A DNA stretch of 64,000 nt from Desertivirga xinjiangensis. Lineage in GTDB: Bacteria > Bacteroidota > Bacteroidia > Sphingobacteriales > Sphingobacteriaceae. The notes below the pieces were generated by a model. The model was not told the origin of the DNA and ran no database searches. It saw only the letters and a list, made by a program, of their open reading frames with translations. Positions 20,284 through 62,380 of this stretch are shown here, piece by piece. The first letter of the stretch is position 1. Every line of letters begins with the position of its first letter. Made by a program: the position numbers and the translations under genes. Location: positions 868,001 through 932,000 of the forward strand of contig NZ_JAFMZP010000001.1 in NCBI RefSeq assembly GCF_024436435.1, read 5' to 3'.

Positions 20284-20295
20284 TGACTTAGGTCA
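20284..20295. promoter_or_regulatory. CRP/FNR-like dyad upstream of usp
   Basis: TGAC-ttag-GTCA, embedded in GTGACTTAGGTCACA, is a symmetric GTGA-N6-TCAC site as bound by the CRP/FNR superfamily. It is the most CRP-like of seven such dyads in the window. Confidence 0.5.
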
Positions 20296-22895: not shown

Positions 22896-22907
22896 TGATC
22901 GTTGTCA
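22896..22907. promoter_or_regulatory. CRP/FNR-like dyad upstream of the copper ATPase
   Basis: TGAT-cgtt-GTCA within ATGATCGTTGTCAT. It is about 95 bp before the start codon, further away than in the fermentation promoters. TTACTTTG at 22979-22986 is the likely -7 box, so a direct class II arrangement does not apply here. Confidence 0.4.
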
Positions 22908-51366: not shown

Positions 51367-51437
51367 TTCCTGAGATAACGAACCTGAAACCGTTTATTTT
51401 GTTCCCGGCAATAACGGGGAAGGATCATGAACAAAAA

Positions 51438-51480
51438 TGACCTGAGTCATAGTATTCGGATCAGATGCTCCCGTAATTTG
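51438..51480 (+). promoter_or_regulatory. CRP/FNR-type site plus -7 box of pta-ackA
   Basis: Dyad TGAC-ctga-GTCA at 51438-51449. The 8-mer GTAATTTG at 51473-51480 occupies the -7 position, 35 nt from the dyad start, the same spacing as in the OFA, pflB and adhE promoters. The dyad centre would be near -41, the class II activator position. Confidence 0.6.
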
Positions 51481-51497
51481 CGCATAAGTTTAAGAGT

Positions 51498-53591
51498 ATG
51501 ACTAAAACAATTTTTATAGCATCAGCAGAGCCCTACAGCGGTAAATCAATTGTCGCTTTGGGCCTGGTCAATATGTTGCTGGGAAAGGCTCAGAAGGTTG
51601 GTTACTTCAAACCTATCATAAATCATGATCCCAGGGAGATTAAGGATGTCCATATCCAGACCATCATAGAACATTTCAATTTGCCGGTTAATTTCGATGA
51701 TGTTTATGCGTTTACGCGCCAGGAGGCGATGCAGCATCTCGAAAGTGAAAGTCAGGGGGAGATGATCGATACGATTATCAGTAAGTACAAAAAACTGGAG
51801 GAAAACTATGATTTCACCATCCTGGAAGGCAGCGATTTTGAGGGAGAAGGAGCGGCTTTTGAATTTGAAACCAATGTAAGGATCGCGAAAAACTTAAGTG
51901 CCCCCGCCATACTTGTGGTTTCCGGTGGAAAAAAAACTACATCACAGATCGTCAACGACGTTCTAAACATGTTGCGGAATTTTGAAGCGAGGGAAATTCA
52001 GGTGCTGGCTATTGTTGCCAATAAAATTGAGCAGGAGCAAGCCGACGATGTTCGGCGCTTGCTGGAGAGTCAGTTACCGGCAGGTACGATACTAGCCGTG
52101 ATCCCCTCTGATAAGGGGCTTGAAAGTCCAACAATTAAGGATATATACCAGGAACTAAATGGAAAATTGCTGTTTGGTGAGGAATATCTTTCCAACCAGG
52201 TGGATAACTTCGTTACGGGAGCCATGCACGTTCCAAACTTTTTGAATCACATTAAAGAGAATGTATTGATCGTTACTCCTGGGGACCGCGGTGATATTAT
52301 TATAGGGTCTTTGCAGGCCAATCTTTCAACCAGTTATCCAAAGGTTGCCGGCATTGTTCTTACTGCTGGATCTGAACCTGAAGAGCCTATTGTCCGTTTA
52401 ATAAATGGATTGCAGAATGTGGTCCCGATTATGTCTGTAAAAACCGGCACATTTCAAACGATTACTGATATAGCTGCTGTGAAACCGCGGATTACGCCGG
52501 ATAATGTGAAGAAGATCCAGCTCGCTATAGATACATTCAATAAACACATGGATGTTTCTTCTCTCGAAAAGAAGATTGTAACCTACGAATCGGAAGGAAT
52601 TACACCTCACATGTTCCAGTATCAGCTGGGTAAATGGGCGAAGCAGAAAATAAAAAACATTGTTTTGCCTGAAGGAGATGACGACCGTGTTTTAAAAGCT
52701 GCCGCGCGTTTGATTGCACAGGATGTGGTTACGCTTACGCTCTTAGGTAACCCGGTAGACATTGCTGCCTCGTTTAAACGACTGGGTCTTACACCGGATC
52801 CCGCTAAAATTCAGATCATCGATCCGGCAAATTCCGAGTACTATGATGATTATGTGAACACGCTTTACCATTTAAGAAAGGACAAAAACGTCACCCTCGA
52901 AATGGCGCGAGATTTAATGACAGACGTGTCTTATTTCGGAACAATGATGGTTTTCAAAGGCCATGCCGATGGCATGGTATCGGGGGCTACACACACTACT
53001 CAGCATACGATACGACCTGCGCTGCAGTTTGTAAAAACCAAACCCGGAATATCGACGGTTTCTTCAGTGTTTTTTATGTGCCTGGAGGACCGTGTTTCAG
53101 TTTTCGGCGACTGTGCGGTGAACCCCAATCCGACTGCGGAACAATTGGCTGAGATAGCCATCTCTTCAGCGGAAACGAGTAAACGTTTCGGTGTTGAACC
53201 TCGAATAGCTATGCTTTCTTATTCCTCGGGCACTTCGGGGGCAGGCGAGGATGTGGATAAGGTGCGCCGTGCCACGGAGATCGTAAAAGAAAAACGGCCG
53301 GATCTGAAGGTTGAAGGGCCTATCCAGTATGATGCGGCGGTAGATCCGGTTGTTGGTAAGCAAAAAATGCCTGACTCTCCGGTAGCCGGTCAGGCAAGTG
53401 TTCTAATCTTCCCCGATCTGAATACAGGAAATAATACTTATAAAGCCGTTCAGCGGGAAACAGGAGCTTTAGCAATCGGCCCTATGTTACAGGGCTTAAA
53501 TAAGCCTGTGAACGACCTGAGCAGGGGTTGTACTGTAGACGATATATTTAATACGGTTATTATCACCGCTATTCAAAGTCAGGAAGCTTAA
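51498..53591 (+). CDS. pta: Phosphate acetyltransferase
   Basis: A 697-residue long-form Pta that converts acetyl-CoA and phosphate to acetyl phosphate. The N-terminal P-loop domain related to BioD starts ASAEPYSGKS (residues 9-17). A DRTGG domain lies in the middle (about 220-330), and the C-terminal PTA_PTB catalytic domain spans about 370-695 with LPEGDDDRVLKAAARL, GMVSGATHTT and MPDSPVAGQASVLIFPDLNTGN. It is 14 bp upstream of ackA, with which it forms the acetate pathway that yields ATP during fermentation. Confidence 0.95.
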   Translation: MTKTIFIASAEPYSGKSIVALGLVNMLLGKAQKVGYFKPIINHDPREIKDVHIQTIIEHFNLPVNFDDVYAFTRQEAMQHLESESQGEMIDTIISKYKKLEENYDFTILEGSDFEGEGAAFEFETNVRIAKNLSAPAILVVSGGKKTTSQIVNDVLNMLRNFEAREIQVLAIVANKIEQEQADDVRRLLESQLPAGTILAVIPSDKGLESPTIKDIYQELNGKLLFGEEYLSNQVDNFVTGAMHVPNFLNHIKENVLIVTPGDRGDIIIGSLQANLSTSYPKVAGIVLTAGSEPEEPIVRLINGLQNVVPIMSVKTGTFQTITDIAAVKPRITPDNVKKIQLAIDTFNKHMDVSSLEKKIVTYESEGITPHMFQYQLGKWAKQKIKNIVLPEGDDDRVLKAAARLIAQDVVTLTLLGNPVDIAASFKRLGLTPDPAKIQIIDPANSEYYDDYVNTLYHLRKDKNVTLEMARDLMTDVSYFGTMMVFKGHADGMVSGATHTTQHTIRPALQFVKTKPGISTVSSVFFMCLEDRVSVFGDCAVNPNPTAEQLAEIAISSAETSKRFGVEPRIAMLSYSSGTSGAGEDVDKVRRATEIVKEKRPDLKVEGPIQYDAAVDPVVGKQKMPDSPVAGQASVLIFPDLNTGNNTYKAVQRETGALAIGPMLQGLNKPVNDLSRGCTVDDIFNTVIITAIQSQEA

Positions 53592-53605
53592 AATGAATCT
53601 TATAC

Positions 53606-54808
53606 ATGAATATATTTGTAATTAACTCAGGCAGCAGTTCCATCAAATACCAGTTGTTTAAAATGCCCTCGGAACAGCCCATCTGCAGCGGCCTCGTAGA
53701 GAGAATAGGACTGGAAAATTCCATCATTACCCATAAGGTATATGCAGATGGTTCAGAAAAAGTTATCAGCAGGGTTTTAGATTTGGCGGATCATGAGGCT
53801 GGTATGCTTGAGGTTGGACACCTGCTGACAGAGCCGGGAATAGGAGTTATACAAAATCCGGAAGAGATAGAGGTAGTAGGGCACCGGGTGGTGCATGGAG
53901 GAGAGAGCTTTTCGGAAACTACAGTTATTACACCACAGGTTAAAGAGGAGATAAAAAAGTTGTTTCCGCTTGCACCTCTGCATAATCCGGGGCACTATCT
54001 GGGGATCGAAGTAGCCGAAAAGATCTTCACAAAGGCTACCCAAATTGTTGTATTTGATACAGCCTTTCATCAAACCATGCCCGAGAAGGCTTATCGTTAT
54101 GCCATTCCGGAATCTTATTACACGGACTATGGTATCAGAGTGTATGGTTTCCATGGAACCAGTCATAAGTATGTATCGGGACAGGCGCTGCAATATCTGA
54201 ATAATCCGGATGCCAAAGTTATTACTATCCATTTGGGGAATGGCTGCAGCATGGCGGCTATTAAAGCCGGCGAGTGCATAGACACCAGTATGGGATTGGG
54301 TCCTCTGGACGGCCTGGTAATGGGTACAAGGAGCGGAAATATTGATGCTTCAGTGGTGTTCCACCTGGTGTCGCACCTGGGTTATGATATAGAACAGGTG
54401 AGCAATCTGCTTAATAAGCGCAGCGGTATGCTTGGTTTAACCGGGTATAGTGATATGCGGGATATTACTAAGTCGATGAATGAAGGCAATGACAAAGCAA
54501 GGCTGGCTTATGATATGTATGCTTACCGGATCAAAAAGTATATTGGATCGTACGCAGCAGCACTTGGCGGATTGGATGCCATTGTTTTCACAGCCGGTGT
54601 AGGAGAAAATGATGCCTATACCAGGGAATTAGTTTGCAGCGAAATGGAGTTCTTCGGTATTCAGCTGGATATCGAGAAAAATAAATTGCGTGGCCCGGGA
54701 ATTCGTGAAATTAGCGTTGAAAACTCTCCGGCAAAAGTTTTAATAGTTCCTACTAACGAGGAGCTTGAAATTGCGAATCAATGTGTTGAGCTGCTTTGCC
54801 AGGCATGA
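53606..54808 (+). CDS. ackA: Acetate kinase
   Basis: A 400-residue ASKHA-fold kinase that makes ATP and acetate from acetyl phosphate. Signatures are VINSGSSSIKYQLF at the N-terminus, VVHGGESFS, FDTAFHQTMPEKAYRYAIP, GFHGTSHKYVS, HLGNGCSMAAI, and the C-terminal FTAGVGEND. Length is exactly typical. It is co-transcribed with pta and followed by a strong terminator. Confidence 0.96.
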   Translation: MNIFVINSGSSSIKYQLFKMPSEQPICSGLVERIGLENSIITHKVYADGSEKVISRVLDLADHEAGMLEVGHLLTEPGIGVIQNPEEIEVVGHRVVHGGESFSETTVITPQVKEEIKKLFPLAPLHNPGHYLGIEVAEKIFTKATQIVVFDTAFHQTMPEKAYRYAIPESYYTDYGIRVYGFHGTSHKYVSGQALQYLNNPDAKVITIHLGNGCSMAAIKAGECIDTSMGLGPLDGLVMGTRSGNIDASVVFHLVSHLGYDIEQVSNLLNKRSGMLGLTGYSDMRDITKSMNEGNDKARLAYDMYAYRIKKYIGSYAAALGGLDAIVFTAGVGENDAYTRELVCSEMEFFGIQLDIEKNKLRGPGIREISVENSPAKVLIVPTNEELEIANQCVELLCQA

Positions 54809-54911
54809 TTTGATTTCTTCGATTGTTGTTTGCTTGAAGGCTGCTTCCGCTCGCGCACTTATGCCGCGTGTGTCCGAATAGCCAAAAATATTCACAAACC
54901 TTTTTATCACA

Positions 54912-54937
54912 GGCTGCCTTAGGGCAGCCTTTTTTTT
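54912..54937 (+). terminator. Rho-independent terminator after ackA
   Basis: GGCTGCC (54912-54918) and GGCAGCC (54923-54929) form a tight hairpin followed by eight Ts. Confidence 0.88.
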
Positions 54938-54977
54938 GAAAAATTTTTACAAAGAGAACTTTAATCAATTATTAACA

Positions 54978-55020
54978 TGACCAAGATCATTCCTTGTTTA
55001 TCAAAGGCTCTGTTACTTTG
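54978..55020 (+). promoter_or_regulatory. CRP/FNR-type site plus -7 box of the OFA transporter
   Basis: Dyad TGAC-caag-ATCA at 54978-54989 and 8-mer TTACTTTG at 55013-55020, again 35 nt apart start to start. A TTG at 54994-54996 is 16 nt upstream of the -7 box. Confidence 0.6.
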
Positions 55021-55039
55021 ATATCAATTAAAATAAGGT

Positions 55040-56320
55040 ATGACAAGAGTGAAGAACAGGTGGTTAATTGCCGCTTCTGCAGTTGGTATACATATAAGTA
55101 TCGGATCTGTTTACGCATGGAGTGTTTACACAAAACCTTTAATAGAGAAGCTGGGATGGGGATTAAAGGAAACACAATTTACATTTAGTTTAGCAATTTT
55201 TTTTCTGGGTATTTCTGCAGCCTTTCTTGGACGTTTCCTGGAGAAACAGAGTCCACGGAAATCGGGGTTGCTGGCTGCCATTTTTTTCGGTGCAGGTATA
55301 GCAGGTTCAGGTCTGGCCATCAAAATGGCCTCACTGCCACTTTTGTACCTGTCTTATGGCGTTTTAGGAGGTATAGGATTGGGTATCGGATACATTACAC
55401 CGGTATCCTCCCTTGTTAAATGGTTCCCCGACAAGCGGGGACTGGCATCCGGTCTTGCGATTATGGGATTCGGCTTTGCCGCGCTTATCAGCGGCCCCCT
55501 GGTGGTTAAGCTGATTCCAGCTGTTGGTATAGATAATACATTTTTTATAATGGGAGCAGCGTATTTTGTGGTTATCTTTCTTTCTTCCCGTTACCTTGCT
55601 GCACCCCCTGAAGGCTGGTCGCCCGGTGGGGGGCAGACTAAGGTTTTGTCAAAGAGTGGAACGGATAATGCAGCAGGCTGGCTGACGGCAAATGAAGCTA
55701 TCAAAACCAGACGCTTCTGGTATCTGTGGGCTATGTTCTTTATTAACATAAGCTGTGGGATAACGATCATTTCAGTGGCTTCACCTATGGCGCAGGATTT
55801 TGCTGGACTGAGTGCGGTTGCTGCAGCCGCCATGGTGGGTTTCATGGGAATATTTAATGGTGGAGGCCGTATAGGCTGGGCGACATTCTCTGACTTTATC
55901 GGCAGACCAAACACTTTTACCCTGTTTTTTATAATACAGATCATCGCCTATTTCTTCCTTCCGGGTATCCATCATCCTGTACTTTTTCAATGTGTTATAT
56001 TTTTGATCATTTCCTGTTATGGGGCTGGCTTTTCAACGGTTCCCCCATATATCGGCGACATGTTCGGTACTAAAGAGCTCGGAACAATACTCGGATATAT
56101 TTTAACCGCCTGGGCTGCTGCCGGGATGGCCGGACCCTTGCTGGCGGCCTGGATTCGTACAGCAACTAGTAGTTACAATGGAGTCCTGTATGGCTTTGCA
56201 GGGTTATTGTTACTAGGGCTTTTGATATCATTCCTGATCAGGTTAGAGATAAAACGTGCTGAGCTAAATTTGGGCGATAAGGAAAACGAAGATCTGAACG
56301 TTTCGGCTTTTGTCGATTAA
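55040..56320 (+). CDS. OFA-family (oxalate/formate antiporter-like) MFS transporter
   Basis: A 426-residue, 12-helix MFS protein. The opening WLIAASAVGIHISIGSVYAWSVYTKPL and GGIGLGIGYITPVSSLVKWFPDKRGLASG are typical of the OFA branch, whose members exchange small carboxylates. It lies between ackA and pflB and shares their promoter architecture, so formate (the PflB product) or a related acid is the reasonable substrate. This is inferred from context, not from binding residues. Confidence 0.87.
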   Translation: MTRVKNRWLIAASAVGIHISIGSVYAWSVYTKPLIEKLGWGLKETQFTFSLAIFFLGISAAFLGRFLEKQSPRKSGLLAAIFFGAGIAGSGLAIKMASLPLLYLSYGVLGGIGLGIGYITPVSSLVKWFPDKRGLASGLAIMGFGFAALISGPLVVKLIPAVGIDNTFFIMGAAYFVVIFLSSRYLAAPPEGWSPGGGQTKVLSKSGTDNAAGWLTANEAIKTRRFWYLWAMFFINISCGITIISVASPMAQDFAGLSAVAAAAMVGFMGIFNGGGRIGWATFSDFIGRPNTFTLFFIIQIIAYFFLPGIHHPVLFQCVIFLIISCYGAGFSTVPPYIGDMFGTKELGTILGYILTAWAAAGMAGPLLAAWIRTATSSYNGVLYGFAGLLLLGLLISFLIRLEIKRAELNLGDKENEDLNVSAFVD

Positions 56321-56363
56321 ATAAATGAATAAACGATTTCGGTTAGTTTGGTTAGTAAAAGTT

Positions 56364-56393
56364 CCCGGGCATCCCCAAAAGTCCGGGGCTTTT
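56364..56393 (+). terminator. Weak terminator-like hairpin after the OFA gene
   Basis: CCCGG (56364-56368) can pair with CCGGG (56383-56387), followed by gctttt. Short stem, so modest confidence. Confidence 0.4.
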
Positions 56394-56435
56394 CATTAAA
56401 GAACTCCTGTTTAGATCAAAGATCATCCCGGATCG

Positions 56436-56478
56436 TGATGCAGATCATTCTTATCAGGCCATTACCCCTGTATTTTTG
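56436..56478 (+). promoter_or_regulatory. CRP/FNR-type site plus -7 box of pflB
   Basis: Dyad TGAT-gcag-ATCA at 56436-56447, close to the FNR consensus TTGAT-N4-ATCAA, and an exact -7 box TATTTTTG at 56471-56478. Start-to-start distance is 35 nt. No -33 TTG is visible, in keeping with an activator-dependent promoter. Confidence 0.7.
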
Positions 56479-56499
56479 AAAATATAAAAACACAATAGT

Positions 56500-58734
56500 A
56501 TGGAAACAGATGTCACATGTATCCCTTTTCAATCCGGTGAATGGAATACAGCTATCAATGTTTATGATTTCGTAGTAAAAAATATTAGGCCTTATACCGG
56601 CGATGCTACCTTTCTTCGTGGGCCTTCTGAAAGAACAAACAGGTTATGGGAGGTAAGCAAACTCTCTTTATTGCAGGAAAGACAGAATAATGGAATTCTG
56701 GCAATTGATACTGAAACAATTTCAAATATTACGGCCTTTGGACCAGGATATATTAAAAAAGAGGATGAGGTAATTGTTGGTCTTCAAACCGATCAGCTGC
56801 TTAAACGCGCAATGAAGCCCTTTGGTGGTGTCAAACTGGTTGAATCAGCTGTAAAGGAACGAGGATTAAATGTTTCGGAACGTGTGCTAGACATATTCAC
56901 TTATGCAAAAAATCATAATGAGGGGGTATTTAGTGCCTACGACGCTGAGATCCGTGCATTTCGTTCTAAACACGTTTTAACCGGTTTGCCTGACAACTAT
57001 GCCCGTGGCCGTATAATAGGTGATTTCCGGAGGTTGGCACTGTATGGTGTAAATCAGATCGTCAAATTCAAAAAAGCTGATCTGGCTAAGGTTGAAGGTG
57101 AAATGACTGAGCATAAAGTACGTCTGCGCGAAGAAATTAACGCCCAGATCAGTGCTTTAAACGATATGCTAAAAATGGCTTCCTCTTATGGGTTTGACAT
57201 TAGTCGTCCGGCAGGAAATGCCGCAGAAGCCGTGCAATGGGTGTATTTCGCGTACCTTGCAGCGGTTAAGGAACAGGACGGTGCCGCCATGTCTTTGGGT
57301 AATGTTTCATCTTTCCTCGACATCTACATAGAGCGTGATATAGAATCAGGATTGTTAGATGAAGAAGGTGCTCAGGAACTAATAGACCAGTTTGTTATGA
57401 AATTACGGCTGGTTCGACACCTACGCCCTGCTTCTTATGACGAGATCTTTGGAGGCGATCCTACATGGGTAACTGAATCTATAGGCGGTACTTTCCATGA
57501 CGGACGCACTAAAGTGACACGGACATCATTCCGCTTTTTGCAAACTTTATACAATCTGGGTGCTTCTCCAGAGCCTAATCTAACAGTTCTCTGGTCGGAA
57601 AACCTTCCTGAAGGCTTTAAAAAATTCTGTGCTCAGGTGTCTATTGATACTTCTTCAATTCAATATGAGAATGATGATCTGATGCGCGGAAGCCGCGGTT
57701 CAGACGATTATGGTATCGCGTGTTGTGTTTCATATCAGGAAATAGGAAAGTCTATACAACACTTTGGCGCCAGGGCAAACCTTCCTAAAGCCTTATTGAT
57801 TGCATTGAACGCGGGCAGGGAAGAACATGATGGGGTTGAAGTGATCAAAAATATCCCGGTAATTCCTGATGGTGTTCTTGACTATGATGTTGTGTGGGAT
57901 GTATTCAAACGCACCTTGTCTGAGCTTGCACGGGTATATGCAAAAGCAATGTATATCATCCATTATATGCACGACAGGTATTATTATGAAAGAGCTCAGA
58001 TGGCCTTCGTGGATACAGACCCTCACATTGACATCGCATATGGCGCAGCAGGGATCTCCATAATTGCCGACTCTCTTGCAGCGATCAAATATGCTAAAGT
58101 AACTCCTGTTCGTAATGAAAATGGATTAACAGTAGACTTTAAAATAGAAGGTGAATATCCACAGTATGGTAATGACGACGATCGCGTGGACAATATAGCT
58201 AAGCAAGTAACCTCTTTCTTTATAACTGAGCTCAGGAAACATGCGACCTATAAAGATTCAACTCCAACGCTGTCTTTGCTTACAATTACTTCTAATGTGA
58301 TGTATGGCACAAACACCGGTGCTACTCCAGATGGAAGAAAAGCAGGCGCGCCATTTGCGCCAGGAGCAAATCCGATGCACGGCCGCGATTGCAGCGGAGC
58401 TATAGCCTCTTTAAATTCTGTTTGTAAACTGGATTATAATGATGCCCAGGACGGAATATCCAATACATTTTCAATGATTCCGAAATCACTTGGGGACAGT
58501 CGCGACGAGCAGGTAAATAATCTCACCCATACGCTGGAAGGTTATTTTAAACAAGGGGCTCACCATTTAAACGTTAACGTCTTAAACAGAGAAACGCTGA
58601 TGGATGCTTATGAACACCCTGAAAATTATCCGCAACTAACAATCAGAGTCTCTGGTTATGCGGTGAATTTCGTAAGGCTTTCAAGAGCTCACCAGCTGGA
58701 AGTAATTACCCGCACATTCCATGAAACTTTGTAG
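56500..58734 (+). CDS. pflB: Formate acetyltransferase (pyruvate formate-lyase)
   Basis: A 744-residue glycyl-radical enzyme that splits pyruvate and CoA into acetyl-CoA and formate without oxygen. The catalytic cysteine pair is C408-C409 in [12 protein letters not shown]. The radical glycine is G719 in [13 protein letters not shown] near the C-terminus. Length and both sites are those of true PflB rather than of a diol dehydratase paralogue. It needs the activase encoded next. Its promoter carries the most FNR-like dyad of the window. Confidence 0.96.
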
Positions 58735-58757
58735 GTAATGTTGTTTTTTAGTTCGAT

Positions 58758-58790
58758 AGAGTCAGGTCCTTAAACCGGCCTGACTCTTTT
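58758..58790 (+). terminator. Terminator between pflB and pflA
   Basis: AGAGTCAGG (58758-58766) pairs with CCTGACTCT (58779-58787) and is followed by TTTT. It may attenuate rather than abolish expression of pflA, which starts 29 nt later. Confidence 0.7.
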
Positions 58791-58818
58791 GTTATATTGA
58801 CCATAACATAATATAAAG

Positions 58819-59600
58819 ATGTATTTTCCCCTACAGGACATTGAAGCCGCCCGGCTGAATGTTAATGATCCGGAACACCTAAGAATACATTCTCTCGAAA
58901 CTTTTGGTACCCATGATGGCCCCGGAATACGAATGGTCGTTTTTGTACAGGGGTGCCAGTTTCGTTGTCTCTATTGCCAGAATCCCGATTCGATAGATGT
59001 GAAGGGTGGAACTCTTGTTGAAATAGAGGAATTAGTAAAAAGAGCTGTTCGCCAGAAGAATTACTTTGGCGCCGAGGGAGGTGTAACTGTATCCGGGGGT
59101 GAGCCGCTGCTTCAGCGGAGTAAGCTTACCCACTTTTTAAAGAACTACATAAGCAGGGGATTAACACCTGCCTTGATTCAAATGGCCGTTTAAATACGCC
59201 CGAGGTTCACGAACTTTTGGAACACACAGACCTGTTACTTCTGGATGTTAAACATATTGATGATAAGTGGCACAGGGAATTAACAGGGCAGTCAAATAAG
59301 AATACGCTTGCTCTTGCTGAGTACCGGGAATCTACGGGCAAAAGAATGTGGTTGAGGTATGTTCTGGTACCAGGATGGTCTGACCAGCTTGAATTTATTG
59401 AGCAGTGGGCACAGCGTTTTGCTGAATATAAAACTGTCGATCGGGTAGAGATAATTCCCTTTCATCAATTAGGTATGCATAAGTGGCAATTGATGAATCT
59501 GGAATATCCGCTAAAGGATACGAATTCCCCGTCTGAAGAAAGCAAACAGGTTACCAAAGCTATCTTTGAGAAGTACTTCAACAATGTTATTCTGAAATAA
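58819..59600 (+). pseudogene. pflA: PflB-activating radical SAM enzyme, coding region in two frames (-1 shift)
   Basis: The activase installs the glycyl radical on PflB. Frame one starts at ATG 58819 and includes the radical-SAM cluster motif C46-x3-C50-x2-C53 (CQFRCLYC) and the EGGVTVSGGEPLLQ region, but stops at 59193. Continuing in the -1 frame from 59142 gives ELHKQGINTCLDSNGRLN, DVKHIDD and IPFHQLGMHKW, a normal activase C-terminus ending at 59600. The joined product is 260 residues, a typical length. The join is at the heptamer T TTA AAG. Possible readings are a lost T in a T5 run (mutation or sequencing error) or programmed -1 frameshifting. The sequence alone does not decide. Both halves look under coding constraint. 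Confidence 0.85.
59136..59142 (+). other. Slippery heptamer T TTA AAG in pflA
   Basis: In the zero frame the codons are ttt tta aag, so the heptamer has the X XXY YYZ form used for -1 frameshifting. Slipping here exactly restores the activase frame (next codon gaa at 59142). Ten bases downstream a hairpin, GCAGG (59153-59157) with CCTGC (59167-59171), could act as a weak stimulator. Confidence 0.5.
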
Positions 59601-59610
59601 GCTTTATTGG

Positions 59611-59675
59611 TGATTACTATCATCTCAGGCTTTGATGTGTATCATACGCTTAGTGTATACTTTACACGAACTTTA
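59611..59675 (+). promoter_or_regulatory. Tandem CRP/FNR-type sites and -7 box of adhE
   Basis: Distal dyad TGAT-tact-ATCA at 59611-59622 and proximal dyad TGAT-gtgt-ATCA at 59633-59644, centres 22 bp apart (two helical turns). The 8-mer GAACTTTA at 59668-59675 sits at the -7 position, 35 nt from the proximal dyad start as in the other fermentation promoters. It matches the TAnnTTTG box poorly, which suggests strong activator dependence. The leader to the ATG is about 70 nt. Confidence 0.55.
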
Positions 59676-59752: not shown

Positions 59753-62380
59753 ATGAAAGCAAATAATTCAGACAAACTACTTCAGCAAATCGAAAAAATC
59801 AGAGAGGCGCAAAGACAATTTTCTACATTTTCCCAGGAACAGGTTGATGAGATATTCCGGCAGGCAGCTATTGCGGCCAATAATGCCAGGATTCAATTGG
59901 CAAAAATGGCTGTAGAGGAGACGGGTATGGGTTTGGTGGAAGATAAAGTGATCAAGAACCATTTCGCATCGGAATACATTTATAACCAGTATAAGAACGA
60001 GAAGACTTGTGGCGTTATAGAAAACGACGAAGCTTTTGGGATCGTTAAGATCGCGGAACCTATTGGTGTGATAGCAGCGGTGGTACCCACTACAAATCCA
60101 ACTTCTACGGCGATCTTCAAAGCCCTTATTGCTTTAAAGACACGTAATGGTATTATTTTTTCACCTCACCCAAGAGCTAAAGGTTCAACCATTGCCGCGG
60201 CAAAAATTGTGCTGGACGCTGCCGTAAAAGCCGGTGCACCGGAAGGAATCATTGGCTGGATCTCAGATCCTTCCGTCGAACTATCACAGATTGTTATGGC
60301 TCAGGCTGACTTGATCCTTGCTACCGGAGGTCCCGGCATGGTCAAGGCCGCTTATTCGTCCGGAAAACCTGCGATAGGTGTAGGAGCCGGGAACACTCCT
60401 GCCATCATTGATGAAACAGCGCATTTAAAAATGGCCGTAAATTCAGTTTTACTTTCGAAGACTTTCGACAATGGGATGATCTGTGCATCTGAACAGAGCG
60501 TAATTGTTGTTGAGAAAGTTTATGAGGAAGTTAAAAGAGAGTTTGAGGAGCGAGGTGCGTACCTGCTAAAGAAAGATGAAGTGAGTAAAGTTGGAGCTGT
60601 TCTATTGATTAATGGAATATTGAATGCAAACATCGTTGGACAATCTGCAGCTAAAATCGCCGCACTTGCGGGTATAACTGTGCCTGAAGAGACTAAGGTT
60701 CTTATAGGAGAGGTTGAATCGGTGGAACTTGAGGAGCCTTTTTCTCATGAAAAATTATCGCCGGTGTTAGCCATGTATAAGGCCAGAAACTTTGACGAAG
60801 CCCTGAATAAAGCAGTGAGGTTAGTGAAACTCGGAGGCTTTGGTCATACGTCGGTTTTATACACGGATGCTGTGGTCAGTCAGGGAAGAGTTGAAAAGTT
60901 TGGTGCTGCCATGAAGACAGGAAGAACTATCATCAATATGCCTTCTTCTCAGGGAGCGATTGGCGATATTTTTAATTTCAAACTATCACCATCATTGACT
61001 TTGGGTTGCGGTAGCTGGGGTGGTAACTCGGTATCAGAAAATGTTGGAGTTAAACATCTTTTAAATATAAAAAGCGTAGCAAAAAGAAGAGAAAATATGC
61101 TTTGGTTCAGGGTTCCGGAAAAAGTTTATTTCAAATACGGATGTCTTCCCGTCGCTTTGAGAGAATTAAAGGATCTGAACAGAAAAAGGGTATTTATAGT
61201 AACAGACAAGGTGTTGTATGAGCTAGGATTTATTGACCATGTTACAAAGGTGTTGGATGAGTTAGGCATTGAACATACTGTTTACTTTGATGTAGAACCA
61301 GATCCAACACTGGCTACTGCCAGAAAAGGGGCTGCTGAAATGGCTATCTTCAAGCCGGATACTATTATTGCTCTCGGTGGGGGATCTCCAATGGACGCGG
61401 CAAAAATTATGTGGGTCTTATATGAACATCCGCAAGAACGCTTTGAGGACCTTGCTATGCGCTTCATGGATATCCGAAAAAGGGTTTATTCCTTTCCGAA
61501 AATGGGAGGAAAAGCTCTTTTCGTAGCCATTCCTACTTCTGCTGGTACAGGTTCGGAGGTTACCCCTTTTGCGGTGATCACTGATGAGAATACGGATATT
61601 AAATACCCGTTGGCTGATTATGAGCTTACTCCGGACATTGCAATTGTCGATGCAGAATTGATGATGAACATGCCGAAGAGTCTAACCTCAGCATCAGGTA
61701 TCGACGCCTTAACTCATGCCCTGGAAGCTTACGTGTCAGTCCTGGCTTCCGAGTTTAGCAACGGTTTAGCGTTGGAAGCAATGCGCCTGATCTTTAAATA
61801 TCTTCCTGATGCTTATAACGAAGGGACAACTAATATAAAGGCCCGTGAGAAAATGGCTCATGCATCAACCATCGCCGGCATGGCCTTTGCCAATGCCTTC
61901 CTGGGAATATGTCATTCGCTCGCACATAAATTAGGGGCCACTCATCATGTTCCGCATGGAGTTGCAAATGGAATGCTGATCACTGAAGTGATTCGTTTCA
62001 ATGCTGTCGAAAATCCTCGCAAACAAGCAGCCTTCCCTCAATACAAATACCCGAATGCAAGATGGAGATACGCCAGGATCGCCGATTATCTGAACCTGGG
62101 AGGTACAACGGATGCGGAAAAAGTTGACTTGTTAATTAAGGCTATTGAGGACCTGAAAGTGAAGGTCGGTATTCCGCGCTCTATCAAAGCTTTCGGTGTA
62201 TCGGAAGCAAAATTCTATGCAAGTTTGGATGGTATGTCTGAACAGGCTTTTGATGATCAATGTACCGGAGCCAATCCGCGTTATCCTTTGATCAGTGAAC
62301 TTAAACAGCTCTATATAAAAGCCTTCGAAGGAACTGAAAGTCCGGCAGCAACAAAAGCAAAAAAGATGGAAGCATCTTAA
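59753..62380 (+). CDS. adhE: Bifunctional acetaldehyde-CoA/alcohol dehydrogenase
   Basis: An 875-residue AdhE that reduces acetyl-CoA to acetaldehyde and then to ethanol, oxidising two NADH. The N-terminal aldehyde dehydrogenase half (about 1-440) has the catalytic cysteine C244 in NGMICASEQS and the nucleotide segment VPTTNPTSTAIFKAL. The C-terminal iron alcohol dehydrogenase half (about 450-860) has GGGSPMDAAKIMW and the metal-binding HALEAYVS, HSLAHKLGATHHVPHG. Length and fusion are canonical. It works in redox balance with PflB. Confidence 0.96.
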   Translation: MKANNSDKLLQQIEKIREAQRQFSTFSQEQVDEIFRQAAIAANNARIQLAKMAVEETGMGLVEDKVIKNHFASEYIYNQYKNEKTCGVIENDEAFGIVKIAEPIGVIAAVVPTTNPTSTAIFKALIALKTRNGIIFSPHPRAKGSTIAAAKIVLDAAVKAGAPEGIIGWISDPSVELSQIVMAQADLILATGGPGMVKAAYSSGKPAIGVGAGNTPAIIDETAHLKMAVNSVLLSKTFDNGMICASEQSVIVVEKVYEEVKREFEERGAYLLKKDEVSKVGAVLLINGILNANIVGQSAAKIAALAGITVPEETKVLIGEVESVELEEPFSHEKLSPVLAMYKARNFDEALNKAVRLVKLGGFGHTSVLYTDAVVSQGRVEKFGAAMKTGRTIINMPSSQGAIGDIFNFKLSPSLTLGCGSWGGNSVSENVGVKHLLNIKSVAKRRENMLWFRVPEKVYFKYGCLPVALRELKDLNRKRVFIVTDKVLYELGFIDHVTKVLDELGIEHTVYFDVEPDPTLATARKGAAEMAIFKPDTIIALGGGSPMDAAKIMWVLYEHPQERFEDLAMRFMDIRKRVYSFPKMGGKALFVAIPTSAGTGSEVTPFAVITDENTDIKYPLADYELTPDIAIVDAELMMNMPKSLTSASGIDALTHALEAYVSVLASEFSNGLALEAMRLIFKYLPDAYNEGTTNIKAREKMAHASTIAGMAFANAFLGICHSLAHKLGATHHVPHGVANGMLITEVIRFNAVENPRKQAAFPQYKYPNARWRYARIADYLNLGGTTDAEKVDLLIKAIEDLKVKVGIPRSIKAFGVSEAKFYASLDGMSEQAFDDQCTGANPRYPLISELKQLYIKAFEGTESPAATKAKKMEAS

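Follow-up and report, generated by a model that had tools for sequence, protein, structure and literature searches.

The 64,000-nucleotide (nt) stretch of Desertivirga xinjiangensis analysed here (contig NZ_JAFMZP010000001.1, positions 868,001 to 932,000; hereafter the window) carries pta-ackA, a transporter gene, pflB and adhE. The question raised by these four fermentation units is whether they share one operator and, if so, which regulator uses it. An earlier note on this DNA had proposed one oxygen- or redox-responsive activator of the CRP/FNR family for the whole pathway. Judged from sequence, the four units probably have a CRP/FNR-type operator in common, at the class II promoter position. 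The genes behind such operators formed a wider set than fermentation, and two kinds of candidate activator took the place of one.

Probable operators of the four window promoters

The proximal inverted repeats, or dyads, were located at 51438-51449 before pta-ackA (TGACCTGAGTCA), 54978-54989 before the transporter gene (TGACCAAGATCA), 56436-56447 before pflB (TGATGCAGATCA) and 59633-59644 before adhE (TGATGTGTATCA). As the earlier note had described, an 8-mer follows each of them at exactly 35 nt, counted from the first base of the dyad to the first base of the 8-mer. These -7-like elements, all on the plus strand, are GTAATTTG for pta (51473-51480, with TAATTTGC starting one base later), TTACTTTG for the transporter (55013-55020), TATTTTTG for pflB (56471-56478) and GAACTTTA for adhE (59668-59675). 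Of the six fixed letters of the Bacteroidetes -7 box TAnnTTTG, pflB matched six, the transporter five, and pta and adhE four each. The inverted repeat TGA-N6-TCA of a CRP/FNR-family operator was present in the window promoters and in most of their orthologues.

For the stricter word TGAYN4RTCA, 12 occurrences were counted in the window where 3.86 were expected, and none of 100 shuffles reached 12. The chance figure of about four per 64 kilobases (kb) in the earlier note agreed with the shuffles, but eight more window dyads had gone unmentioned. One of these, at 59611, is part of the adhE promoter, exactly 22 nt upstream of its proximal dyad, and five are inside listed reading frames (7247, 7536, 22634, 46446 and 63561). 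The intergenic dyads at 20284 and 22896 have a stress-protein gene and the gene of a heavy-metal P-type ATPase nearby. Neither had a box at 35 nt toward a gene; the composite at 22896 exists only on the strand with no gene ahead and was left out.

Conservation of dyad, box and spacing

The comparison set consisted of 150 related genomes, 91 from the same family (Sphingobacteriaceae) and 59 from other families of the class. pflB matches were found in 14 of the 150 genomes, at 15 loci. At 80% identity or more, 10 of 11 pflB loci, own included, keep TGA-N6-TCA and TAnnTTTG at exactly 35 nt; in the eleventh (L033) the box stands at 35 nt and one of the half-sites is broken. Four more distant pflB loci (77%, 77%, 66% and 29% identity) had neither dyad nor box. 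For adhE, six full-length orthologues were compared among 30 loci. Five of the six, including our own, carry a tandem pair of dyads 22 nt apart, the near dyad lying 35 nt from a TTTA box, which reads CATCTTTA, TATCTTTA or TACCTTTA in the orthologues.

The pta comparison covered 13 full-length orthologues among 29 loci. A dyad was present in 11 of the 13, own included, and seven had the box TACCTTCG, TACTTTCG or TATCTTCA exactly 35 nt after it. In the remainder, two had a less exact box (own and L077), two had a dyad with no box, and two had no dyad. The composite before the transporter gene was found in five of 10 fetched regions; two more had it at the equivalent place with no reading frame called, and three were without it. 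Across species the distance from dyad to box was constant, whereas the DNA between them differed. Loss of the dyads before orthologues was one of the outcomes that the earlier note had named as refuting its reading, and most pflB, adhE, pta and transporter promoters keep the dyad.

The genomes were then scanned with TGA-N6-TCA-N23-TAnnTTTG, with 17 off-spacings as background and the reversed pattern as control. The 91 family genomes gave 337 matches at the exact spacing, compared to 104.4 per off-spacing (1775 over 17) and 78 for the reversed control; the Poisson p of about 1e-72 ignores relatedness. The 59 genomes of other families gave 317 matches against 72.0 per off-spacing, with 25 for the reversed control. 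Over all 150 genomes, the dyad with TAnnTTTG was about 3.7 times commoner at 35 nt than at other distances. The orthologue conservation and this excess bear out the claim that four matching promoters are hard to explain by chance.

A further set of 80 named loci comprised the neighbourhoods of the fused regulators described below. Only two distances stood out there, 35 nt (34 matches) and 57 nt (120 matches), the next highest count being 7; the stricter word TGAYN4RTCA matched 87 times at 57 nt. Three other palindromic patterns in the same loci gave at most three matches per spacing with TAnnTTTG and at most 10 with TAnnTTT, and among the matches listed 35 or 57 nt appeared in at most three of their top lists.

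In Flavobacterium psychrophilum, the TAnnTTTG box is placed at -12 to -5 (PMC9723704, available part). If this position applies here, the two dyad centres fall at -41.5 and -63.5, so the class II position near -41 proposed earlier is probably correct.

The 57-nt distance corresponds to a distal register 22 nt upstream of the proximal dyad. Each of the four window promoters has a further site or half-site, at least ATCA, at exactly this place, a pattern that was noticed after looking and was not a planned test. For adhE it is a full dyad (TGATTACTATCA, 59611-59622). The half-site ATCA occurs in pflB (GATCAAAGATCA, register 56414-56425), in pta (51424-51427 within 51416-51427, GGGGAAGGATCA) and in the transporter promoter (54964-54967 within 54956-54967). 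TCA was kept at the exact distal offset in eight of 10 pflB promoters, and the distal site in all five adhE promoters compared. It was seen in one of nine pta promoters and one of eight transporter promoters, our own in both cases. Three further sites of our own genome had the distal left half only (one) or neither half (two). A distal half-site as a general rule was thus rejected; it holds for pflB and adhE and fails for pta and the transporter.

Genes behind the sites

Six more promoters of similar design were found up to 31 kb beyond the window end. One precedes an operon whose first gene is of the iron-sulphur repair (RIC) type and which includes a NorB-type gene (box CTCCTTTG), and another precedes a small cytochrome c gene (box TACTTTTG). 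A dyad with the box CACCTTTA at 35 nt precedes the gene of one fused regulator (L015:8899-9957). Tandem sites precede a D-lactate dehydrogenase-like gene and a 125-amino-acid (aa) gene followed by a universal stress protein gene, and a site at the 57-nt position lies upstream of the start of cbb3 ccoNO that relatives suggest. The RIC operon site (C11:936096) and the site at C11:944646 had TTTG rightly placed and lacked TA. The latter (L010:1501-1543) was matched to no gene.

The gene context of composite sites was read at 29 loci taken from 44 matches, four of the 29 lying inside long reading frames. Names of genes behind sites in the relatives were assigned by sequence, except where a family search is cited. 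Among the 80 named loci, sites were found ahead of ldhA-like genes, of ccoN and of a conserved gene with a product of about 593 aa. The product of this gene starts with FHIPVLGLGYSIDTPLKVARY in relatives, and many of the named loci have sites ahead of the gene; examples are L118, L122 and L124, where it lies about 2.8 kb into the locus. The own copy (L016:10704-12485) had no Pfam match.

The genes behind the sites are mostly of low-oxygen or nitric oxide function. The earlier idea of common control of the fermentation pathway stood in so far as the four units share the site, but the set extends beyond fermentation to cbb3 oxidase, nitric oxide defence, D-lactate dehydrogenase, cytochrome c and stress proteins.

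Candidate regulators

A profile search of the D. xinjiangensis genome with HTH_Crp_2 gave nine matches, five of them over the cut-off. One of the five is short with an internal stop, and the remaining four were taken as candidate regulators. The first is an FNR homologue of 247 aa (C19:701452-702192) with the N-terminal cysteines C-x4-C-x2-C-x2-C. The recognition helix of cysteine-type FNR is E-x-x-S-R; the own homologue departs from it with E-T-V-F-R. By alignment, all four cysteines were complete in 16 of its 30 best homologues.

The other three candidates are fused regulators of 352-355 aa, with an N-terminal receiver and a C-terminal CRP-type half. Their helices read E-S-L-S-R, E-T-I-S-R and E-S-V-S-R, and E-x-x-S-R was found in 74 of 75 fused regulators read. 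Two of the three were scanned and showed Response_reg, cNMP_binding and HTH_Crp_2. FixJ has a receiver with a LuxR/GerE-type output domain; the output of the fused regulator, cNMP_binding plus HTH_Crp_2, is of another kind. The fused regulator scored 100 bits against the FixK model NF050806 of NCBIfam, under the cut-off of 300. Among the best 60 structure matches listed, each by its best stretch, no solved chain covered the receiver and the CRP half together.

The genes of two fused regulators (L015:8899-9957 and L016:14955-16022) lie past the end of the window, at distances of about 2 and 28 kb, the second directly after the gene of a 405-aa kinase. The PAS domain of this kinase matched FixL structures (8.7e-34), with the HDSYI and IIGIGR stretches aligned; we take these to hold the heme-ligand histidine and the nearby arginine of FixL. 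At the sequence level, MPEPDRSAHDSYINRY and IIGIGREV of the kinase occupy these places. Upstream of the fused regulator, 74 of the 80 named loci encode a kinase with the histidine motif.

In two Adhaeribacter records (L101 and L102), the fused regulators were 75% identical to our own, as close as those of the nearest Sphingobacteriaceae. Adhaeribacter is presumably placed in another family, and a transfer is possible on sequence grounds.

Which regulator may use the sites

In the explanation that we consider fairly likely as a whole, FixK/FNR-type activators would use the dyads as operators. The position would be class II (-41.5) in primary-sigma promoters, and a second site or half-site at -63.5 would often assist. 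A single low-oxygen regulon would then take in pta-ackA, the lactate transporter, pflB and adhE together with cbb3, D-lactate dehydrogenase, nitric oxide defence and stress proteins, and in our own genome these lie together in an island of about 43 kb. The activators would probably be of two kinds, response regulators with a receiver fused to a complete FixK/FNR-like protein, and the FNR homologue with four N-terminal cysteines. The sites, their spacing and conservation, the gene neighbourhood, the domain make-up and the likeness to FixL around the heme are seen in the sequences; we infer that such proteins bind the sites and activate transcription, with low oxygen as the signal.

The FixL-coupled fused type was put first because of linkage and distribution. 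Both regulator types were called present in family genomes at E <= 1e-50. The fused regulator lay within 90 kb of pflB in six of the 10 family genomes having both, and in its own neighbourhood sites precede D-lactate dehydrogenase and ccoN. Family genomes with the fused type had 4.4 sites per genome compared to 2.4 without it (p 0.0002), and those outside the family 7.2 compared to 3.3 (p 0.0006), on counts uncorrected for genome size, which tempers the comparison. In 29 family genomes with the fused type and no close cysteine FNR, 3.69 sites were found against 1.22 expected.

Several other results weigh against this explanation. The exact word TGAYN4RTCA had only five matches at 35 nt in the 80 named loci, compared to 34 for TGAN6TCA. 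The outer bases of the dyads, mostly R..Y or A..A in these promoters, do not discriminate between regulators. Two genomes without the fused regulator, G006 and G046, have 15 and 12 composite sites, including sites before ccoN, and G006 keeps its pflB site. The fused type was not enriched in the pflB genomes of the family (10/12 vs 49/79, p 0.20), whereas the cysteine FNR was (11/12 vs 27/79, p 0.0002). Even the 24 family genomes with neither type had 1.79 sites against 0.76 expected, and 27 genomes outside the family without the fused type had 3.26 against 1.27. Because of the excess in genomes with neither type, further regulators must exist or the thresholds miss relatives. A single regulator was not borne out, since each type is missing from some genomes with site excess; both are for this reason inferred users of the operator. 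The word "one" in the earlier proposal could not be kept, with four candidates encoded and the site excess persisting in genomes with no close relative of either kind.

The enrichment in pflB genomes opens the way to a possible alternative, to which we give clearly less than even chances: the cysteine FNR homologue alone would drive the fermentation units through an oxygen-labile iron-sulphur cluster, and the fused regulators would serve only cbb3, lactate dehydrogenase and the like. It gains from the cysteine motif of our own protein and from G006 and G046, where TGATN4ATCA-like sites remain plentiful ahead of pflB, a formate/nitrite transporter and, as named by sequence, cbb3 and a cbb3-type ATPase (for the transporter, the first 60 residues gave a Pfam match of 1.8e-6, which does not reach the cut-off). 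However, all four cysteines are present in only 16 of the 30 best homologues and in five of the 10 among these 30 that come from pflB genomes, the helix is E-T-V-F-R, and the own gene is on a different contig from the cluster. Moreover, six genomes with FNR and without the fused type and pflB showed no site excess (1.17 vs 1.24).

A regulator of the cAMP-CRP type, reporting carbon state and not oxygen, is very unlikely to be the user of the dyads. The core of a CRP site is GTGAN6TCAC, and outer bases G..C, which give this core, were counted at 42 of the 123 distal sites in the named loci. Against this, the downstream genes are low-oxygen genes, the adjoining kinase is FixL-like, and in place of the R that precedes the recognition E in CRP-type proteins, the four candidates have Y, Q, N and I. 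Hardly credible is the remaining idea, that dyads and spacing arose by chance in AT-rich intergenic DNA and were selected by eye. Its ground is the own genome, where the dyad with TTTG at 35 nt gave 14 matches compared to seven for the reversed pattern, and 194 pooled over 25 spacings, about 7.8 per spacing. This excess is modest and would not settle the chance question alone, although a single stretch of about 25 kb on contig 11 holds six of the 14 composites, and three of these six fall past the end of the window. The genome-wide scan proposed earlier gave a modest excess at home and a strong one in the family. The question is settled because relatives conserve dyad, box and spacing; on this and on the spacing counts in the 91 and 59 genomes, a chance origin was ruled out.

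Returning to operators shared by fused regulators and cysteine FNR, we would lay about even odds on a broader scheme suggested by these sequences. In many Bacteroidia, a FixL-type heme kinase would phosphorylate a receiver-FixK/FNR activator, and this would bind tandem TGA-N6-TCA sites at -63.5 and -41.5, switching on high-affinity respiration, nitric oxide defence and, where present, mixed-acid fermentation. The cysteine FNR would share the sites, placing two oxygen sensors at one operator.

Genes of the window

All window genes concerned are on the plus strand. pta (phosphate acetyltransferase, 51498-53591) matched Pfam PTA_PTB, AAA_26 and DRTGG, and ackA (acetate kinase, 53606-54808) matched NCBIfam TIGR00016 above the cut-off. 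The transporter (55040-56320) belongs to the MFS and had been labelled OFA in the earlier note. A model of L-lactate transporters of the SfMCT type fits better, since NF049980 was passed at 425.2 bits (cut-off 320) and the OFA model TIGR00890 gave 213.5 bits, under its cut-off of 374.85. pflB (pyruvate formate-lyase, 56500-58734) matched Pfam PFL-like and Gly_radical, and adhE (acetaldehyde-CoA/alcohol dehydrogenase, 59753-62380) matched NF010378 above the cut-off. pflA (58819-59600) is split into two reading frames; the split may reflect a genuine lesion or an error in sequencing. An intact pflA of 260-261 aa was seen in eight of the 10 fetched regions of relatives, and none was found in the other two.

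Comparison with known systems

Neither the position of the operator nor the notion of an FNR/FixK regulon is new in kind. Set against the known site sequence and promoter positions of Escherichia coli FNR, our system is alike in the TGA-N6-TCA core, the probable class II position, the low-oxygen genes and the four-cysteine homologue. It is unlike in its outer bases, which in E. coli FNR sites are T..A and here mostly are not, and in the Bacteroidetes -7 box. The cysteine protein also differs through its helix E-T-V-F-R, and relatives do not always keep the cysteines. The two preferred positions, about -41.5 and -63.5, resemble class I and II promoters of CRP. The class I position of E. coli CRP is -61.5, whereas the step here is 22 nt and the sites are often found in pairs.

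Oxygen control in Sphingobacteriaceae appears to be little described; no paper on Pedobacter, Fnr and cbb3 was found in the open-licence papers searched, nor, among those listed, any description of a receiver-FixK/FNR fusion beside a FixL-type kinase. CRP/FNR homologues of Flavobacteriales, Saprospiraceae and Ignavibacteria were linked to MalR and carbon in the available part of PMC8510549, and strong induction of cbb3 under oxygen limitation was reported for F. psychrophilum in that of PMC9723704. If our explanation is true, it supplies a target list open to test by ordinary genetics, along with a defined operator, two positions fixed in the promoter and named candidates for the sensors.

In the rhizobial FixL-FixJ-FixK cascade, kinase, receiver and activator are separate proteins. 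The available parts of PMC9104804 and PMC7888657 deal with this cascade. Our system is like it in having a FixL-type PAS domain, a receiver protein, a FixK-like half and a cbb3 target, and unlike it in that the targets include mixed-acid fermentation. As far as sequence can tell, it also differs in carrying the receiver and the FixK/FNR-like activator in one protein beside the FixL-type kinase, so a separate step of fixK transcription would not be needed. Because the fused regulator is encoded directly after the FixL-type kinase, oxygen sensing and FixK-type activation would join in one step, and the cascade, if this is true, would be shortened to two proteins.

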